A program made the position numbers and the translations under genes. Positions 3,547 to 44,879 of a DNA stretch of 45,469 nt are shown here, piece after piece; positions within the stretch are counted from its first letter, which is position 1, and each line of letters starts with the position of its first letter. The notes under the pieces are model-generated. The model saw only the letters and a list, made by a program, of their open reading frames with translations. It was not told where the DNA came from and did not search any database. Source of the DNA: Spirogloea muscicola (taxonomy: Eukaryota > Streptophyta > Zygnematophyceae > Spirogloeales > Spirogloeaceae); assembly GCA_009602725.1 (NCBI GenBank), contig WELB01000152.1, positions 53,233 to 98,701 of the forward strand, written 5' to 3'.

Positions 3547-4607
3547 GGCGCCTCTCCGGAGTGCCCCAAGCTAGCCTTTGAGCTGTGGAGTGAAAGCGTT
3601 GGAAACAAATATCTACCACTATCTTCAATGCTGTTAGTCTGTCTTCGTCTATATGGCAGCGTGGTGTGGCATTGACCCTGGACCCTTAACCCGAAGACGT
3701 AAACCTAAAGCCTAAACCTTTGAACCCGAAACCCTTTTCTTGTTAGTCAGCTCACGAGTCGATGAACGAGACAGCCGAGGGGTTTCGCTTGAGCCAGACT
3801 CAACTCCTTGGCTTCAAGCATCTGCTTAGCGGTAAGGACTGCACAAGATCGGCCTCAGCAAAAAGTCTTCAGAGGAACCAATGACTGCAGAAGGCCAGCC
3901 CTTAACCCCAAACATAGGGCTATTGTCAGAGCTTGGACAAGATCCCCTCAGCGATTTTGTCCAAATTCTTATGGCTGGCCATTCACAGCCGTCGTTCGCT
4001 TTTGACAGAGCTTCTCCTTCTTTTGCATTGGACAAGATCCTGCCCTGCAAGGCCCATCGAATTTGATCAGGTGGTACTGGGTAACGGTCCTTGTAGAAGA
4101 GCAATAGGACAGCTGAATCCCCTTGCAAGAAGTCTCGCGGATGATGTCTTGTTGGCTTGTGCTAGCAAGCTTCCGCTGCGTGGTGGGGTTCCTTGGGCTT
4201 GTTAACATGGTAACACGGTCTAGTACATGCAAGTCATCAGAATTGAGATCAATATCTTCACTGTGCTGCTCATGATCAGGTGTGCGAGCACTCTTAGCAA
4301 CACCACTGGCCTGTACACAGCAGCCGTTTACATCACGCCATCTGAATTGAAGGCTGTATGACGGTCCTCTTCATTGGAATGGGACAGCCCCACTGCTATT
4401 TTCTGAAGCTGCAGGAGGTTGACCAAATGTATGCCAAACTGTCATTCGGAGCAGCAAAGCTTGCTGACAACTCGGACAGACATATTGAGAAATTTACACG
4501 GCCCTTGAGCAGGCACTCCACCTAATTCTATGGACTTGCAAATGAGTGCTAGGAACTGAAGCAGGCAAGGTCCCTCACGGAAGCAGCATCCACGTGGTTG
4601 GGCATGT
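3547..4607. other. Intergenic, COP10 upstream side and MIP3 3' side
   Basis: This holds the presumed COP10 promoter and the 3' flank of the MIP3-like gene. It includes a degenerate telomere-like tract near 3672-3735. About 3890-4060 has weak copies of the GGCTGG…CAGCC repeat family, mostly reverse orientation (for example GGCTGGCCATTCACAGCC near 3973). No exon is recognised. Confidence 0.45.
3672..3735. repeat. Degenerate telomere-like tract
   Basis: Successive variants of CCCTAAA / ACCCTTAA / AACCTAAAG / GAACCCGAAACCC run for about 60 bases just upstream of the COP10 start. It resembles plant-type TTTAGGG telomere sequence that has decayed. Confidence 0.5.
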
Positions 4608-9479: not shown

Positions 9480-10030
9480 CACGGGGCTTTCGGGCGTCTA
9501 GGGTTCCGGGCTTTCGGAAAGTGAACACCGTCAATGTGAGACGTTGGCCTCACATTGTGAGAGGCCAGCCCAAAAAAAGTGTGAAGCTCGTTCCAAAAGG
9601 GGCGGGGGCTGTGGATGGCCAGTCCAGGAACGAACAAGGTCCGAACGGCCGAGAGGCGCCTAAACTGCACAGCTATGCAAGAGAGAAGGCGCGCGGGGCG
9701 CATGAAATGATATGGAGGCCAATTCAAGCCGATACTTGTTCAGGCAGAGTCTAGGGCAAACTAAACAGGGCTACATACTACGGAAAGAAGAAGAAAGTGC
9801 TCGCCCATTGAGAATAGGGGCTGGAACAACCAGCCCGAAAAAGAATGAACAGAGTACGAGAAGGGGGCCAGGAAAAGCGCTAAGTAACAGAAACAAAGCT
9901 GCTACGAGACACTCAGTAACCCCTGCTAAGCAGCCGCAGATCAGAGATGCTGGGCTCCTGGAAGTGGGTCCCACGGAAAACGAAACCAAGGTGCCTAAAG
10001 GTGACATCAGTACCCACGGGTGAGCACAAA
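9480..10030 (+). repeat. Hairpin-module repeats, forward orientation
   Basis: Three or more copies of the dispersed module lie here: GTGAGAGGCCAGCCC (about 9559-9573), GGGCTGTGGATGGCCAGTCC (9608-9627) and the longest form, CGCCCATTGAGAATAG followed by GGGGCTGGAACAACCAGCCC (about 9801-9838). Each is followed by variants of GAATG.ACAAGGTCCGAAGGGGCC, ACAGCTATGCAAG, CTCAGTAACCCC and AGCAGCCGC. The stretch from about 9798 to 9975 is nearly identical to 44623-44868 apart from an insertion there. Confidence 0.75.
9681..9746 (+). mobile_element. 66-bp mobile-like unit, copy 1
   Basis: Begins GAGAGAAGGCGCGCGG and ends TTGTTCAGGCA. The same unit recurs at 44155-44221 and 44668-44734 with a few substitutions and one single-base length difference. 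No coding capacity and no obvious terminal inverted repeats. No clear target duplication at this copy. Confidence 0.6.
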
Positions 10031-10240: not shown

Positions 10241-10337
10241 CCTGACTAGAGGTTACTGAGCGTTCCCTGGCTGATGTCTTAATCCTAGTCCTTCGTACTC
10301 CGGCTCCTTCATGCCTTGTCCATTCCTTTGGGCTGTT

Positions 10338-10415
10338 CATTCTTTTTCGGGCTGGTTGTTCCAGCCCCTATTCTCAATGGGCGAGCACTTTCTTTGGGCT
10401 GGCCTTTCCCAGCAA
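10338..10415 (-). repeat. Hairpin module, reverse orientation
   Basis: The reverse complement of the long module at about 9798-9850 (CATTCTTTTTCGGGCTGG … CAATGGGCGAGCAC), about 500 bp away, so the two form an inverted pair. A second, shorter reverse copy (TTTGGGCTGGCCTTTCCCAGC) follows directly. Confidence 0.75.
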
Positions 10416-24502: not shown

Positions 24503-26179
<1,677 letters not shown>

Positions 26180-26181
26180 GC

Positions 26182-26914
26182 NNNNNNNNNNNNNNNNNNN
26201 NNNNNNNNNNNNNNNNNNNNNNNNNNNNNNNNNNNNNNNNNNNNNNNNNNNNNNNNNNNNNNNNNNNNNNNNNNNNNNNNNNNNNNNNNNNNNNNNNNNN
26301 NNNNNNNNNNNNNNNNNNNNNNNNNNNNNNNNNNNNNNNNNNNNNNNNNNNNNNNNNNNNNNNNNNNNNNNNNNNNNNNNNNNNNNNNNNNNNNNNNNNN
26401 NNNNNNNNNNNNNNNNNNNNNNNNNNNNNNNNNNNNNNNNNNNNNNNNNNNNNNNNNNNNNNNNNNNNNNNNNNNNNNNNNNNNNNNNNNNNNNNNNNNN
26501 NNNNNNNNNNNNNNNNNNNNNNNNNNNNNNNNNNNNNNNNNNNNNNNNNNNNNNNNNNNNNNNNNNNNNNNNNNNNNNNNNNNNNNNNNNNNNNNNNNNN
26601 NNNNNNNNNNNNNNNNNNNNNNNNNNNNNNNNNNNNNNNNNNNNNNNNNNNNNNNNNNNNNNNNNNNNNNNNNNNNNNNNNNNNNNNNNNNNNNNNNNNN
26701 NNNNNNNNNNNNNNNNNNNNNNNNNNNNNNNNNNNNNNNNNNNNNNNNNNNNNNNNNNNNNNNNNNNNNNNNNNNNNNNNNNNNNNNNNNNNNNNNNNNN
26801 NNNNNNNNNNNNNNNNNNNNNNNNNNNNNNNNNNNNNNNNNNNNNNNNNNNNNNNNNNNNNNNNNNNNNNNNNNNNNNNNNNNNNNNNNNNNNNNNNNNN
26901 NNNNNNNNNNNNNN
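26182..26914. other. Assembly gap (733 N)
   Basis: A run of N between ARL1 (-) and COX11 (+). It must contain the shared divergent promoter and the N-terminal (mitochondrial targeting) part of COX11. Long open frames that cross it are artefacts. Confidence 0.99.
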
Positions 26915-28656
26915 GGCAGCGGCGGCCGGCGCCGCAGCGGCGGCAGGCCGCTCGCGGGCCACGCTGGCGTACCTCGGCGCGCTGGCCGTCGCCATGGTGG
27001 GTGCCACGTACGCCGCAGTGCCGCTCTACCGCATGTTCTGCGTCGCCACCGGCTACGGCGGCACCACGCAGAAGCGCGAGGTGCGCCCCGCAAGTGCTTA
27101 CCCTAACACCCCAACCCCAAACCCTAAACTCTACCCTAACTCCTAAACCCCTGAACCCTAAGCCCGCCCCCTGCTGCTGCTTCCCAGATGATATCTAGCT
27201 ACATCGATTTCTTATATGCTATTCAGCTCAACCAATGTATACGCTGTCTTTTAAGTAAGCTCTGAGCGCTGAACCCTGAACGCTGCTGGCTATGGCTCTG
27301 ATAGCCGCACTCTACGCTGCCCTTCACGTAGACGGTGGAGGAGAGAATTGCTCGCCACGGGGCCCCGGACGGCGAAGCTGCAAGGTCAGCTTGCGAAGAC
27401 CTACGTACGCCTTACATGCTCGTTGCGCACTTCTGTCCCTATTTATCATCAACTGAGATTTTGCGGCACTTGTGGGTGACGCTGAGTTATGGCCACAAAT
27501 GGCAGCCGGCGAGAGCTCGTGGTGCACTTCAACGCCGATGTCGCCGACGGCATGCCCTGGCGCTTCCACCCCAGCCAGCGCGAGGTGAGGGCGGCTCTCT
27601 TGCTGCAGACGCTGCCAATGTTGCTGCCAACATATGACTGGTGACGAGGTTGCTGGCTGAATGTGGGACTGATGCCTGCTCACTTGGCGCAGCCGTCCAG
27701 GTGAGAGTGCGGCCTGGCGAGAGCACGCTGGCCTTCTTCACCGCTCACAATCTCAGCAATGAACCCATCACGGGCGTCTCGACGTATAATGTCTCGCCTG
27801 GCAAGGTGGGGATAGGCTCAGCCAAACCCTGGCCCTCACTGTATCTTGTAGTTGTAATTCTTTCATATCCATGCTAACTCGATGCTCTCTTATAGTGCGT
27901 CAACCTCTCTACTCTGTATACCCCATCTGAAGTACCTTATGGAAGTCCAGCTGGTCAATGAATTTGTGATCAGAAGCTGAGGCAGCTTGACTTAGTCATC
28001 TCATGCAATTTGACAATCTTTCAACACATTGAGCTGCTGTTGATAGCCCCTTCCTTTACCTCCTGACATTAGTATTCACATCCTCAGAATGCTGCTTGCG
28101 CTGCCACTGAGTGTGCCAGGCGGGCCTCTATTTCAACAAGATCCAGTGCTTCTGTTTCGAGGAGCAGCGCCTCCGGGCAGGCGAGAAGGTTGACATGCCT
28201 GTAAGTGGGCCCCGCTGTGGCAGCTGTGCCTGTCCAACTCTCTCTATGTTGGCCCAACCGGGACCTCGTTGTAGATACCCCAGTCTTGGCAATGAGCAAT
28301 CTGTGGGCATTTGCTTCTGTATTGCGTGGTTGGAATGCAGGGTGATGCACTCATTGCTCAGTTTGCAGAGCTGGGAGCACAAATCCAGGAGTCAGAGGTC
28401 AACACACAATCATAATTGCTGTCCGTTGCGCTGTCTAACAGAGGAAGCGCATGCCAATGGCTTGCTCCTCCCATCTTCTCCCGCCTATTCGCAGGTCTTC
28501 TTCTACATTGACCCCGAGTACTTGGCCGACTCGAAGCTGGACAAAGTTGACCACCTCACACTCTCGTACACGTTCTTCAGGGTCGATGACGATGACGACG
28601 ATGACGACGACGACCACAAGACCAGCAACCGCTCCACTATTGGCGTCAAGGCATAA
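26915..28656 (+). CDS. COX11: COX11 copper chaperone for cytochrome c oxidase (5' end in gap)
   Basis: Visible exons: 26915-27080, 27332-27384, 27506-27584, 27701-27805, 28120-28200 and 28495-28656; all junctions keep frame. The first visible exon has an Ala-rich stretch then the membrane helix [20 protein letters not shown] and [14 protein letters not shown]. Then follow the conserved [30 protein letters not shown] and [20 protein letters not shown] is the copper-binding motif. The domain ends FFYIDPE…[14 protein letters not shown]11 is anchored in the mitochondrial inner membrane and delivers copper to the CuB site of COX1. An unusual C-terminal tail has ten consecutive Asp codons followed by a short polar end, beyond the family's usual ending. 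The targeting peptide and start are lost in the gap. Confidence 0.95.
27098..27165. repeat. Telomere-like tract in COX11 intron
   Basis: Variants of CCCTAAA, CCCCAAACCCTAAACTC, CCTAAACCCCTGAACCCTAA run for about 65 bases shortly after the exon ending at 27080. This is the second-best preserved telomere-like tract in the window. Confidence 0.65.
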
Positions 28657-29405
28657 GCTTGCTGTGGCCGATTGACGCCCCTGGCACACATTGTGTCTCT
28701 CCAATGGACACCCCTGGCACGTATTGTGTCAATTCAGCTTGGGCGGCGCAGCTGCTTTTCCTTTCTGGGGGCTCTTTTTGACGATGCAGACCGTGCAGAA
28801 TAATGGAGCCCTACAAACAATTTCACACTTGTCTGCTGGCATTGTGTATCAAGTGCATTAACTGGCTGCTTTCCATGTAGTGCGCACACAGTCAAAGTCT
28901 TGTTTGCAGCTGATATTCATGTGGCAGGTCAAAGTGGTAACTTCAAGTCGGGCCATGTCGCTGTTCTTGTGCTACTGACAGGTTTCACGCTGCAGCTATC
29001 AAAGTCAAGCATTAGCTGCAAAGCGTTTGAGCATGAGACTGGCAATACGGGACTTTTCTGCGCTGCAATGCAGACTGGGCAGCGGAAGCAACGAGAGCAG
29101 CGTGGTACCTTTCAATGTCAGACGCCCAGGACTCCAAAGGAGTAGTAGCTGGATACACTTGCCTTGTAAGCTTTGGGAGGGAAAGCGGCTGCTGGCATCT
29201 GTAAGAGGCGGCAGCGGCGTAGGTGGTAGAGAGCAACACAGAGCAGATCGCAGAGATGCGACACACCTTGTAGCACTGCCAATGCTGCGGCATGATTAGG
29301 GTTCAATCCCAAACCCAAACTCTGCCTTCCGGCTGCTGACTCGGGGTTACTAGGCTCCATGCGCTGCAGTCTCTTGCAGAAAAGAAGTGAGGTCCTCTAA
29401 AGGGA
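28657..29405. other. COX11 downstream region
   Basis: 3' flank. It contains a short imperfect direct repeat (CCCCTGGCACACATTGTGTC at about 28677 and CCCCTGGCACGTATTGTGTC at about 28711), one telomere-like fragment near 29296-29320, and no recognisable exon. Confidence 0.4.
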
Positions 29406-29720
29406 AGGAAAAACGCTCCCACTAGAGGACGATGGCCGTGAGAGGCCAGCCCAGGGAAAGGAATGAACGATTTCGCAGGGGCCAGAGAAATGCGCAAGAC
29501 TTTCTCAGTAAAGGCCGATAATGTGATTGGCCAGCCCAGAGAAGGGGATGAAAATGACCGAAGGAGCTCTTGCATAGCTGTGAGATTTCTGGCGCTTTCC
29601 GGTCCTTCGGCCCTTGTCCACTCCTTTGAGCTGGCCTCTCACAGCCACTGGCTATCAATTTGGAAGAGCTGTTTCGTGTCTTATTCCTTCTAGGCTGGCT
29701 TTTCACAGCCCCCGCCCCCT
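29405..29720. repeat. Hairpin modules in both orientations
   Basis: Forward copies: GATGGCCGTGAGAGGCCAGCCC with GAATGAACGATTTCGCAGGGGCC (29431-29480) and GTGATTGGCCAGCCC (29522-29536). Reverse copies: GAGCTGGCCTCTCACAGCC (29628-29646) and GGCTGGCTTTTCACAGCC (29693-29710). Confidence 0.7.
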
Positions 29721-30290: not shown

Positions 30291-30740
30291 AGGGCTCGCC
30301 TATTGAGAATAGGGGCTGGAACAGCCAGCCCAAAAAACACACTCAAACCCCCCTTGCCCTCCCCCACTGACCTGACCTGATCCCGGCTAACCCTTAACTG
30401 AAGTGTCCCCAACCCCTACCTCCCCTTTCTTCTTCTCCTTTCCCCGACCCGACCCTGGTGTGAGCCTTTCCAGTACACTCCTTTGGGCTGGCCTCTCACA
30501 GCCACTGCCGTAGAGCTGTTTCTTTCCAGTACAAGCCACTCTAAGTTGCAGCTATTCACTAGGAGTGAGGGGCCCCCCCTTAGTAGCCACTTGCGAAGCT
30601 GTTTTTCTGGACTCTTCGACCCTTTCGTACATTGTCCAGGCCTTTTTGGGGTGGCCTTCTACAGCACCATCCCCTCTTGAAAAATCTCCTCTCCACCATT
30701 GTTCCAAGCGTGGATGCCGAGTAGCATGGCGAGCCCACAT
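30290..30740. repeat. Hairpin modules, forward then reverse
   Basis: The forward long form CTCGCCTATTGAGAATAGGG followed by GCTGGAACAGCCAGCCC is at about 30295-30331. Reverse copies are at about 30483-30503 (TTTGGGCTGGCCTCTCACAGCC) and 30640-30680. In between are pyrimidine-rich tracts. Confidence 0.7.
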
Positions 30741-34459: not shown

Positions 34460-37400
34460 GTCCCTGCGGCAGCCGCCGTGACGGCAGCTGCAGCTGATGA
34501 TTCTGCAGATGCCACCGGGAGCAATGCGGTAAGCCGGCCCTGCCGCCGTTGCGCCAGCTGGCAGCCGCATCCCGTCACTGACATGGGCAATCCTGGGGGC
34601 TGAGCGGCTATGCTCCAGCTGACAGCGGGTGCGCTGGTGCGGCTGCATGCAGACCGTGCATGTGGAGCTGCGCACAATCCTCAGCTTAGGAATTACAGAC
34701 TGGGAGTCCACGGTTGCGGAAGAACCACTGAAGCTAAACACGCCGCCGCCGATCACACTGCCTTCTGTATGGAGCATGTACCGCGTGGAAAACAAGGTAC
34801 ACAGACATTCGCAGCCTGAAAGATCGATCACTTCTTTCAACTTGCCTATAGGCACGGGCACTGATTGCTGCCACCTGCCACCCGCGTCGCAGTTCTGCTG
34901 CCTGCAGCTCCTGGCGGTGGTCGACACGATGTGCTTCAACGGCACGCATGCGCTGACAATGGACGAGGAGTGCGCCAATGACGACAGTGCCGGTGCGGGC
35001 TGCACGACCGCAAGCGCAGGGCTCGCCTAGCTGCCGCTGCAATGTCGTCGCCACACCTCGCCTAGCTGTTGCCAGCATAACAAGCAATGCTGATGGGCAG
35101 CTCGCCTCTCTGTTGTTCTTTGCTCCTACAGTAGCACCAGGCGGGCCGCTGGAGCTGCTGCGCTGCAGCTTATCTAAGTACAAGTCCTGGAAGAAGCACG
35201 TGAGTGATCATCTGCGGCTGGCATCCCTCGGCCACATGTGCCGTGTAACTCTTGCCAGCCGAGCGCTGACGCGATTGCTTGCACTGTGGTCGCTGCCGCC
35301 GCTGTCGCCGCTGCCGCAGCTGAAGAAGGAGACTGAGATGCAATTTGGGGGACGGCCGCAGTCTTGGCTTGCCAGGTAAGTCACCACAGTAGGGGACTTT
35401 TGGACCAAGCAGATCCGCGGGCAAACGCATCGCCCGGCAGGCTGATGCAGGCCCCTGACATGGCTTGCCGCGCCATTTCCCAGCCGGGCGGCCATCACAT
35501 GGCGGCGCGGCACGACGTACCTGCAGTACATGGACAAGAGCAATACGAATGTGGCGCACATCTTCGGCAAGCTCGCGCAGATGCTCCTGGTCAACAACGC
35601 CACCGGTCAGAACCGCATAGCCTCAACAATTGCCACCCCCAACGAGCAGCAGTTTGTGCAGCCAGTGCGCAGCTTGCGAGGTCCGGTGGACATTATTGAC
35701 AGGCTTGCTCTTGCCAAGTTTGCTACTGAGAAGTTGGGAAACTACTGTGGCAGCATTGTGCTGTGCCGTGCCTCACTTGCGGCACAATTCTCGGTGCCTA
35801 TCGCTTTTCTATGCAGAGCCGGCGCTGGCTCTGCCCGTCCACCGCGTGGCCCTCCCGCGTGCTCACGACACGCTGATGAGGTGCCCTCCTGTTGCGCAAG
35901 CTGGTGGACATGGCCACTGGCCTCTCTTCTAAAGCACCGGTTCTGAGTCCTGTGACTAACGATGCTGTACACTAAGTCAAGCTGATCTCAGCTGCCATAT
36001 GCCTTTGTTCTCATGCTCGACTCACCCCTCTGACCTACCGGAAGCTGGGGTCTTCAGGCTGCGCCATTTGGGGACTACAGGGTTTCACGCAACGTTCATA
36101 CGGCAGCTCGCCATCCTTGTGATGCGCCAGCAGTTAGGCACTCGATTCGAGTGGCACTCTGAGATGGAGCCACACCTCGTGCTCGGCGACAAGTGAGCAT
36201 CGCTCCTCGTTATTCTTCCCCAGAGCTGCAGCTTGACTGACCCTGTGACTTGGAGGACAATCAGACTCGTCAAAAGAGCACATAACAGACCCTCTTGTCT
36301 GTGGCAGAAGATGCAAGCACTGTCTATAGAGTACTGCTAGAGCGGCAGAGACGCACACAGCTCAGGTGCCAGTTTTACGAAGGAGAAAAGCATCATGAAG
36401 GCCGCCTAAGTGCCACAGTCAATAGCTGTTGGACGTCGCAGGCATGGCATCCCTCAGCCAGATGCCAAAGCTCACTCCCCACAGCTGTGCACAGACCGAT
36501 GGCATGGAACACGGTGGAATTCGAGGAGGCCTTTGATGCAGCAACCGAAGATCAGCCGCTGTGCTTCGAGCGTGTCATCATGCCTGGGGTATTGAAGGTG
36601 AGAAAGCCCATGGCAAGTGTCGTGCGGAAGGTTACTGCCTTGCAATGGCCACGCTGTTGGGTGAACGGCCATGTCAAGCAGAAGCGGGCTTCAGATATAT
36701 CAGCAGTAAAGCTTATGCTCTTGGTTTAATGGGTGCCTGGCGTGCAGGCCACAGTGTACCCTGGTGGCCCGAAGGTGGCCAAGAAGTTCCAGCGCGAGCT
36801 GCGGCGGAGTCTCACCCCCCAGCCGCAGATCGCCATCGGCGAGATCACGGTGCTGTATATCACGCGGCTGGACCAGAAGGTGACGACCGGGAGGCGCATG
36901 TTCACCGGGGAGAGCCACGAGGCGCTGCTGGGGCTCTTTGCCAAGCTGGGCTTCCGGGTCCGCATGGTCGAGTTCCAGGTGCGCAAAGCACGAGTGTCAA
37001 TCAAGACCTGAAACCTAAGCCTGAATCCTTAAACCCGTAACTCTAACCCTAAGTCCTAAACCCTAAGCCCTAAACCCTCCTGCGCTGACATTGCTCAAAG
37101 TCTCGCTGTCAGTGATAAGCTGGGACCTTAGTGAGGTCTCCAGCGTCCTCATCAACATGTGCGGCTCTGGGTGGCAACAGGGTATGCCGTTCATGGCCCA
37201 GTTCCGGGCGGTGCAGGAGGCGGACATCATCGTCTCACTGCATGGCGCGGGGCTGCTCAACCCAGCAGCGCTCGCGCGCGCCGCGAGCGTGCTGCTCGAA
37301 ATCGAGCCTTACAACACGCTGCACCAGACATACCACTACATGGCCGTCAACACCGGTCTGACGTACATGATGCACCAGTGCCGTGCCGGCGAGACGCGCG

Positions 37401-42139: not shown

Positions 42140-42930
42140 TCTCATGCTCCACGACTTCTCAAACGGAGGGGAGGGAGGGAGGGGGGGGTGACGTCCCCAC
42201 CGACCGTTTCATGGGGCGTGCAGCAGAGAGCACCTGACCGCTCGCGCCCGCGGCCCTGATCTCACCATCTGACGGCAGCAGCCTCGGAAACGACAAGCAC
42301 GTGCTGGTACATGGCGCGCTCAGGCGTGCCACGTGGCCGCGGCCGACGTCGCAGGCCTGTCGCGTAGCAGGGCCCCGCCCCGCGGGACGGGCGTCGTCGC
42401 CGGCCGCACGTGCGCCTCGACGCCAACCCCCTTCCTTACGCTGTCAACCTTAATCCGTCCCCTCTTTCGGCGACGGATTTAGTTAGCGGCCTCTTCGTGC
42501 TAACTTGTGCTTACTCGGCAGGCCAGCTTAGTTAGCGCCAGGTGATGTGCGGCTGTCAACGTGCTTGCATCTGTAATTGGCCAATCAGGTCCTCCACCTC
42601 CCAACATTCACTCTCATTTCCCCTCAGCATTGGGCTTGGTGGACCACTTTTCGTAGCCCCAATTTTTGCATGAGCTTTTACCTGAGCAGTGCATTGGCTT
42701 AAAGGAACAGCGCTTCCAAGTTGACAGCAATGGGCCTCCCGTTCGTTTCTCGCGCACCGCGCGACTTCAAATATGAATGCGGCTGCTGATATTGAAAGAG
42801 CGGCTCTCATCCCCGTGGCAGCGTTTTATGGTCCACCGGATTTCTTATTCCGAAAGAAGCGGCTCTATATCAGCGAGACTTCCCCAGGGTGCGAGGGTAG
42901 CGGAGGACTAGCTTACAAGAATGACTAGGC
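42140..42930. promoter_or_regulatory. Unique stretch with G-box and CCAAT-type motifs
   Basis: No gene. CCACGTGG at 42329-42336 shares GTGCCACGTGGC with the two boxes upstream of copy A. ATTGGCCAATCA (near 42577) is a CCAAT box in both orientations. Both are known plant factor-binding cores; any link to copy B, 0.9 kb away, is inference. Confidence 0.3.
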
Positions 42931-44154
42931 CCAGAGGAAAAGAACAGCGCTTCCAGATTGACAGCGGTGGCTGTGAGAGGCCAGCCAAAGGAATGGACAA
43001 GGTCTGGAAGGGCCGGATGGCGCGAGAAGCAATATACTAATTGTTAAGACGACAGCAAGTAGGCTCTCAGTAACCAAAGAAGAAGAGAGCTCTTCCAAAG
43101 GGTGCTGTGAAATGCCAGCCCAGAGAGAATGGACAAGGTCCAAAGGGCTGAAAGGCGCCAGATTTACACAGCTGTGCACAAGACTACGGCAAATGGGAGC
43201 TTAGTAATCACGAGACAGCAGCCGCAAGTTGGAGTAGCTTGCAGCTGGAAGAGCAAATTACACAGCAAACACAAATGGCTACTGCAGAATTGCCACTCGT
43301 AACCCCTATGCAACAGCTGCAATCGGATAAGACCATTATGGAAGAGCACGAAGGCAAGTCTCTCAGCAGCAAATGGCTGCGATGATAGCCACTCAGTAAC
43401 CCCTAGGCAACATCCTGAAGTGGACAGAAGAAGCTCTTTCAAGGGGAGCGAGGGCTGCCTAGGTAGACATGGCACAGCTCTTCCAACTTACGGCAATGGC
43501 TGTGAGAGGCCAGCCCAAAGGCATGTACGAGGTCTGGAAGGACCGGATGGAGAGATACTAGTCTTCAAGACGTCAGCAAGAGGCGCTCAATAACCTTGAG
43601 TCCGCAATTGCCAAGTGGCCAGAAAGAGACGAGAAGCAGCTCGGCAAAGGGCGAGGGAGAAGCAGCTCTTCAACCATTTTTCTGGGAAGGCCAATAACAG
43701 CCATTGCCCTCTACTGCAAGCGTCCTCCTGTCTTCCGAAGGGGCCGAGGGCTGTGGAAGAGAAAAGGCTCGCCCATTGAAGATAGGGGCTGGACAAGCCA
43801 GACCCAAAAAGAAAGAAAGAAAGAATGTGGAAAAGCAGCCCACGTATAAGTTAACAAGGTCCGAAGTAGAAAGACGAAAGCTTTTGGTCAAGAACTGGCC
43901 ATGCATAACTGTGAATAGAAACAGCTCTTCCAATGCAAGGTAATGGTAGTTTAAGGCCAGCCCATATGAGAGCGGACAATGAAACCAGAATGGAGCCGAA
44001 AAGAAGGAGAATAAGCTCTTCCAATGGGCGAGGGCTGTGAAAGAAGTGGCTCTAACAATGCTAAACCACAGCTATGCAAGTACGAGGGATGGTCAGCAGA
44101 TGGTCGGTCAGTGACCCCTAATGAGCAGCCGCAAGTTAGAAAGCAATGGACAAG

Positions 44155-44221
44155 GAGAGAAGGCGCGCGGGGCGCATGAACTGAAAGGGAGGCCAATTCA
44201 AGCCAATACATTGTTCAGGCA
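44155..44221 (+). mobile_element. 67-bp mobile-like unit, copy 2
   Basis: GAGAGAAGGCGCGCGGGGCG … TTGTTCAGGCA, nearly identical to copies at 9681 and 44668. It is flanked by AAG on the left, and AAG follows if the unit ends at ...CAGGC, so a 3-bp duplication is possible. Confidence 0.6.
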
Positions 44222-44667
44222 AGGGAGAGAGGAAGAGGTGCAGACGAAAGTAAGCTCTTTCAAATGGGAGCGAGGGCTGTGAGATGGCCAGTCCGAACAC
44301 ACAAGAAAAGGGGGCTCTTCCAAAGGGGGCGAGGGCTGTAAAGAATTGTGGCGGCTTCTCTTGCGACGGGGGCAAGGGCTGTGATAAGCCAGCCCGAAAA
44401 GCATGACAAGTGCTCGCCCATTGAGAATAGGGGCTGGAAAAGCCAGCCCAAAAAAGAATTAACAAAGGACGAGAAGGGGGCCAGGGGAAGCGCTAAGTAA
44501 AACAAGCACACAAAGAAACAAAGCAGCGACGGATCACTCAGTAACCCCTGCTAAGCAGCCTTAGGTTAGAGACACTAGGCTCCTGGAAGTGGGTCCCATG
44601 ACAAGGCCTGTGAAAAGAAGAAAGTGCTCGCCCATTGAGAATAGGGGCTGGAACAACCAGCCCGAAA

Positions 44668-44734
44668 GAGAGAAGGCGCGCGGTGCGCATGAAATTAAAG
44701 CGAGGCCAATTCAAGCCATTACATTGTTCAGGCA
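44668..44734 (+). mobile_element. 67-bp mobile-like unit, copy 3, nested in a hairpin module
   Basis: The unit interrupts a long hairpin module that is continuous at 9798-9850. The uninterrupted form reads CCAGCCCGAAAAAGAATG. Here it reads CCAGCCCGAAA, then the 67-bp unit, then GAAAAAGAATG. GAAA (44664-44667 and 44735-44738) is therefore duplicated, as expected for insertion with a 4-bp staggered cut. Confidence 0.75.
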
Positions 44735-44879
44735 GAAAAAGAATGAACAGAGTACGAGAAGGGGGCCAGGGGAAGCGCTAAGTAACAGAAACAAAGCTGC
44801 AACGAGACACTCAGTAACCCCTGCTAAGCAGCCGCAGATCAGAGATGCTGGGCTCCTGGAAGTGGGTCCCCTGGCCAGA

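Follow-up and report, generated by a model that had tools for sequence, protein, structure and literature searches.

A 67-bp mobile unit nested in an abundant repeat of Spirogloea muscicola is a candidate for a very short retroposon

Among short mobile sequences, rodent ID elements are simple SINEs with a tRNA-derived body of ~75 bp and an A-rich tail, and introners are short and numerous and insert into many places. SINE lengths are given as 100–700 bp (PMC10886601). Green-algal SINEs are described from Chlamydomonas reinhardtii as SINEX-1 to -6; the 3′ repeat of SINEX-2_CR is (CTTT)n, and the RNA origin of SINEX-1, -2 and -4 is listed as unknown (PMC3747384). The tailless retropseudogenes of mammals have no oligo(A), their insertion being primed by 2–18 bases complementary to the RNA end, and the screen described for them covered inserts from 30 nt with target duplications of 8–35 nt (PMC5322556). 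Among the papers turned up by a literature search that was far from exhaustive, none, judged by title and abstract opening, describes a retroposon of the kind considered here at less than 100 bp. We analysed a window of 45,469 nucleotides from Spirogloea muscicola (GCA_009602725.1, contig WELB01000152.1, positions 53,233 to 98,701), in which a 67-bp unit has inserted into one copy of a more frequent repeat, below called the module (Table 1).

The initial annotation had described a 67-bp insertion between two GAAA where the empty site has only one, and the alignment bears this out. With the unit and one GAAA taken out, the host module aligned without gaps to the empty module at 9788–9972 over all 185 bases of each, with 3 substitutions. 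A module profile built from 32 matches, minus the three unit-bearing loci, scored the joined host flanks as one full-length match of 79.1 bits, versus 51.8 and 22.0 bits for the separate halves. This score, together with the gap-free alignment, identifies the difference as an insertion, with a net size of 71 bp at the 44668 site. The 71 bp were split as 67 + 4 bp because the other copies set the 67-bp limits; the split rests on limits common to three unit copies with differing flanks.

Two other histories were weighed, namely loss of the unit by deletion from the 9.8-kb site and segmental duplication of a longer block, and beyond the shared module nothing favours either. The insertion site (profile positions 40–58) was spanned in one piece by 29 of the 41 module matches in the whole window, so that a deletion at 9.8 kb is unlikely. 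Two of these 29 matches (44730 and 10210) each represent the downstream half of an interrupted copy. No spanning match exceeds its own profile stretch by more than 16 bases, and none carries the insert in one piece. GAAA stands once in the empty site and twice in the filled one. Shared extended flanks were looked for and were absent: similarity among the three unit copies ends within a few bases of the unit limits, beyond which the flanks are unlike, and segmental duplication is for this reason a poor fit. We give deletion or duplication next to no probability. The data support insertion of the unit at 44668, and with it the past mobility that had been claimed for the unit.

The unit is dispersed in the window as four copies in non-coding sequence with unlike flanks, as is usual for SINEs. 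A 40-base consensus stretch, with up to 3 mismatches allowed, was present in exactly 3 copies (chance expectation 0.00, 100 shuffles), and a profile of these three retrieved the diverged fourth copy well ahead of the next best match (E = 0.3). The copies at 44155 and 9681, which had been annotated as standing alone, are indeed present but do not simply stand alone, a module match ending 14 bases away from the former and a module copy adjoining the latter. The two module copies of the filled and empty sites differ at 3 of 185 bases; between the inserted unit and the copy closest to it in the window the count is 5 of 67. Small as these numbers are, they hint that the inserted copy may have come from a source outside the window. 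Both ends are fixed in the three close copies, and since no truncated unit copy occurs in the window, 5′ truncation is not demonstrable for the unit. The constancy of the ends bears on whether the unit is an end fragment or an internally deleted derivative of some larger retroelement not seen here. The fourth copy, at 89 bp, has ~27 extra bases and may hint at such a larger form, and fragments do insert, as the 44-bp and 56-bp end pieces of the module demonstrate; truncated copies, however, would be ragged on one side, whereas the three close copies begin and end at the same bases. We regard a fragment as decidedly improbable.

Table 1. Positions of the unit, its target duplication and selected module copies in the window.
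Feature	Positions	Strand	Flanks or basis
67-bp unit, filled site	44668–44734	− (inferred sense; initial annotation used +)	Copy comparison, profile, alignment
GAAA target duplication, left copy	44664–44667	none	
GAAA target duplication, right copy	44735–44738	none	
Module of subfamily M2 hosting the unit	44613–44873	−	No duplication found around this module itself
Empty M2 module, 186 bp	9787–9972	−	ACGGAAA at 9780–9786 and 9973–9979
Second unit copy	44155–44221	−	5/67 bases unlike 44668 copy; 14 bases past module match end
Third unit copy, 66 bp	9681–9746	−	Directly after profile position ~107 of a module copy
Fourth unit copy, diverged, inverted	42680–42768	+	nhmmer, E = 3.7e-7 with profile of three copies
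M2 module, 186 bp	44411–44596	−	CATGACAAG at 44402–44410 and 44597–44605; directly follows a module end piece
M2 end piece, 56 bp, inside another module	10336–10391	+	CAGCCCAAAG at 10326–10335 and 10392–10401
Module end piece, 44 bp	30478–30521	+	TGTACTGGAAAG at 30466–30477 and 30522–30533
Module piece, 82 bp	3946–4027	+	GGATCTTGTCCAA at 3933–3945 and 4028–4040
Double module piece, 188 bp, inside oppositely oriented module	29379–29566	−	TGCAAGAG at 29371–29378 and 29567–29574
Near full-length module, outside M2	43088–43250	−	Profile match

Among the unit copies, only the one at 44668 has a 4-bp repeat exactly at the unit limits; looser repeats of 4–7 bp also occur beside the copies at 44155 and 9681, though in ambiguous form, overlapping the purine-rich ends of the unit. 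In a direct-repeat scan the best scores of the four copies were 4.5, 6.2, 3.6 and 3.2, compared with a median of 3.3 and a 95th percentile of 5.5 at random places in repeat-rich stretches, and only the copy at 44155 exceeded the 95th percentile. Across these four copies the repeats that flank the unit are not conspicuous against the controls, most lying within the control range. Because the scan scores are so near the controls, it is the alignment with the empty site, and not the scan, that supports the duplication at 44668.

A duplication of 4 bp is short for retroposition. Its clean appearance at 44668, together with ends that are constant in three copies, would suit a very small DNA transposon derivative, either a MITE or another cut-and-paste relative, that duplicates 4 bp of its target. 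Against such an element, no 4-bp repeat coincides exactly with these limits in the other copies, and the best 8-base match near the two ends agrees at only 4 of 8 positions. The unit is not classed as a MITE because it has no terminal inverted repeats. We consider an origin as a DNA transposon quite unlikely, and a short retroposon fits the unit better than a MITE does.

What had been called a hairpin module does host the unit, but it is itself one copy of an abundant repeat family with signs of mobility of its own (41 profile matches at E ≤ 0.01 in the window). One end of the family is fixed, 29 of the 41 matches beginning at profile position 8 or before; the other is ragged, with ends spread over profile positions 36 to 174 and only 9/41 matches reaching position 165 or beyond. 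Direct repeats flanking module matches were scanned with hand-set limits and then, for all 41 matches, with automatic limits, the controls being the same intervals shifted by 60–600 bases (60 sets). Repeats of at least 9 bp flanked 5/41 matches (control mean 1.07, maximum 3) and were not found at the other 36/41; one of the five is of low complexity (12832, AG repeats). Repeats of at least 7 bp flanked 12/41 matches versus a control mean of 6.28 and a maximum of 11, so that a lone 7-bp repeat means little; the ACGGAAA at the empty module is such a weak case, of a length that is common in the controls. Convincing duplications of 8, 9, 10, 12 and 13 bp were found at five module insertions, besides the weaker one of 7 bp; the 8-bp duplication (TGCAAGAG), which belongs to an interrupted module copy, was identified by manual inspection. 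The remaining module matches, the host of the unit included, showed no convincing flanking repeat. The 44-bp module end piece, which has an exact 12-bp duplication, is shorter than the 67-bp unit.

The fixed end, the ragged end and the duplications of variable length together place the 3′ end of the module at the start of the profile. Target-primed reverse transcription characteristically leaves this pattern, the sense here being opposite to the strand used in the initial annotation. Near the 3′ end in this sense lies a conserved stem, GGGCTG...CAGCCC, in which standard pairs occupied 163/196 cells over 33 copies, compared with 25 to 103 when the partners were slid by 1–2 columns; since the pairs scarcely vary, the stem reflects conservation and not covariation. 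The module is best read as a SINE-like element of ~185 bp with a stem-loop and a pyrimidine-rich 3′ end. Terminal inverted repeats of the module, GCTCTTCCA...TGGAAGAGC, were considered and rejected, as other full-length copies end differently. At 44253–44411, two to three module end pieces lie head to tail just ahead of a full M2 module.

Three module copies are interrupted: one by the unit at 44668, and two by module pieces, at 10336–10391 and 29379–29566. The insertion at 10336–10391 occupies nearly the same module position as the unit at 44668, and its locus is also an empty site for the unit. The insertion at 29379–29566 sits in TATGCAAGAG; the unit at 9681 stands directly after TATGCAA of a module copy, and the places that the unit at 9681 and the module at 29566 occupy in their host modules agree to within 3 bases. 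On the far side of the 9681 unit, module sequence continues for just 7 bases (46.5 versus 43.8 bits), and because the continuation is so short we call the nesting there probable. Of the three unit copies, at least two adjoin a module copy or lie within one. Nine left junctions, of three units and six modules, were read by eye on the profile strand, and 8 of them have AA within the 3 bases that precede the element, the background being 880/6100 positions in two repeat-rich stretches; as the module stretches are A-rich and the limits at 9681 ambiguous, this is only a hint of a preference for A-rich targets. At 42680–42768, the 27 middle bases of the fourth unit copy resemble the module end by eye, perhaps as a very short module insertion inside the unit. 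The filled and empty sites in the window give the relative order of insertions.

Such a patchwork of nested module pieces might also arise by DNA repair, the unit then being a filler copied from elsewhere into a double-strand break of the module by template switching, and not an element itself. The clean junction, which duplicates only 4 bp, and the flanking repeats of the unit, which mostly lie within the control range, would agree with a filler. Random patches, however, would not share both ends nearly to the base as the three unit copies do, and the repeats of 8–13 bp at module insertions also speak against repair. We consider a filler unlikely.

On balance, we think it slightly more likely than not that we are dealing with a non-autonomous SINE-like retroposon of very small size, itself probably carried by the LINE-encoded machinery of the module. 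The unit RNA would have the sense of the minus strand and run TGCCTGAAC...GCGC-loop-GCGC into a C/T-rich end, CTTCTCTC. Reverse transcription of this RNA would take place where A-rich target DNA has been nicked, C/T-rich tails perhaps base-pairing with the A/G-rich 3′ ends at such nicks, and a short target duplication would be produced on insertion. The same unseen LINE-encoded machinery would spread both unit and module, which are alike in their inferred sense in having a 3′ stem followed by a C/T-rich tail. The RNA intermediate, the strand of the unit and the shared machinery are inferred.

Searches for a parent RNA in the window returned 0 tRNAs and 0 Rfam families at gathering score; in the stretch 42.6–44.9 kb, which covers the copies other than the one at 9681, no Rfam family matched at the unit with E ≤ 5. 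No reverse transcriptase was found in the 59 distinct open reading frames scanned, which are a part of the 446 or more stop-free stretches that reach 60 amino acids. Folding of the unit was not significantly better than that of shuffles on either strand (fourth copy, antisense strand only). In scans of IMG/VR and GTDB contigs, exact patterns longer than 16 bases, whether of the unit or of the module, had no match. The only matches came from the two patterns of 16 bases, with 11 and 6 stretches; as homologues of the unit from outside these were rejected as chance, the similarity mostly extending over 16–20 bases and once over 32 bases at 78%.

A more specific reading, which we hold only tentatively and rate as somewhat unlikely, takes the unit for a complete retroposon family of ~65–67 bp with fixed ends, a 3′ stem and a pyrimidine tail, below the published size range of SINEs, co-mobilised with the larger SINE by one LINE and preferring the A-rich spots of that SINE. 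If this is true, target-primed reverse transcription can amplify as a family an RNA as short as the unit, which would mark a lower limit of size for such templates; it would show how little RNA template a LINE needs and would locate the recognition signal in the 3′ stem and tail. If the unit is instead a fragment or a filler, the locus is routine repeat nesting. In kind the element is ordinary; its small size is unusual.

Elsewhere in the window, a gene for COX11 (cytochrome c oxidase assembly) with short exons lies at 27015–28653. Its Pfam match has E = 0.001, below the cut-off, at 27015–27086 and E = 4e-20 in the last open reading frame; the middle exons and their GT-AG introns were read by eye. 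A run of 733 N (26182–26914) lies just upstream of this gene, and an exon of an ARF/ARL1-like GTPase lies on the minus strand at 25192–25317 (Pfam E = 3.2e-14, with PDB matches). The COX11 gene and this exon mark the window as eukaryotic. Degenerate telomere-like CCCTAAACCC tracts occur at 27097–27165, inside the COX11 gene, and at 37045–37078, at the start of an open reading frame with a sub-threshold match to glycosyltransferase 61.

Compared with described systems, rodent ID elements are like the unit in size, but neither a tRNA origin nor an A-rich tail was found for the unit here. GT...AG ends, which would point to an introner, are absent from the unit on both strands (GAGAGAAGG...GGCA on the plus strand, TGCC...TCTC on the minus strand), so that the unit is no introner; nor was any copy seen inside a coding gene in this window. 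That 67 bp is far below typical SINEs, as the initial annotation had remarked, agrees with the published range (PMC10886601). Tailless retropseudogenes resemble the unit as short pieces of RNA origin with target duplications, if the unit is read as a retroposon; as described, they are truncated and derive from known parent RNAs, whereas the ends of the unit are fixed, its duplication measures 4 bp and no parent RNA was found for it (PMC5322556). The SINEX elements, likened here by description and not by sequence, compare with a module of ~185 bp and a unit of 67 bp; like both of these as read here they are short retroposons, and the (CTTT)n of SINEX-2_CR comes near the C/T-rich 3′ end proposed for unit and module (PMC3747384).
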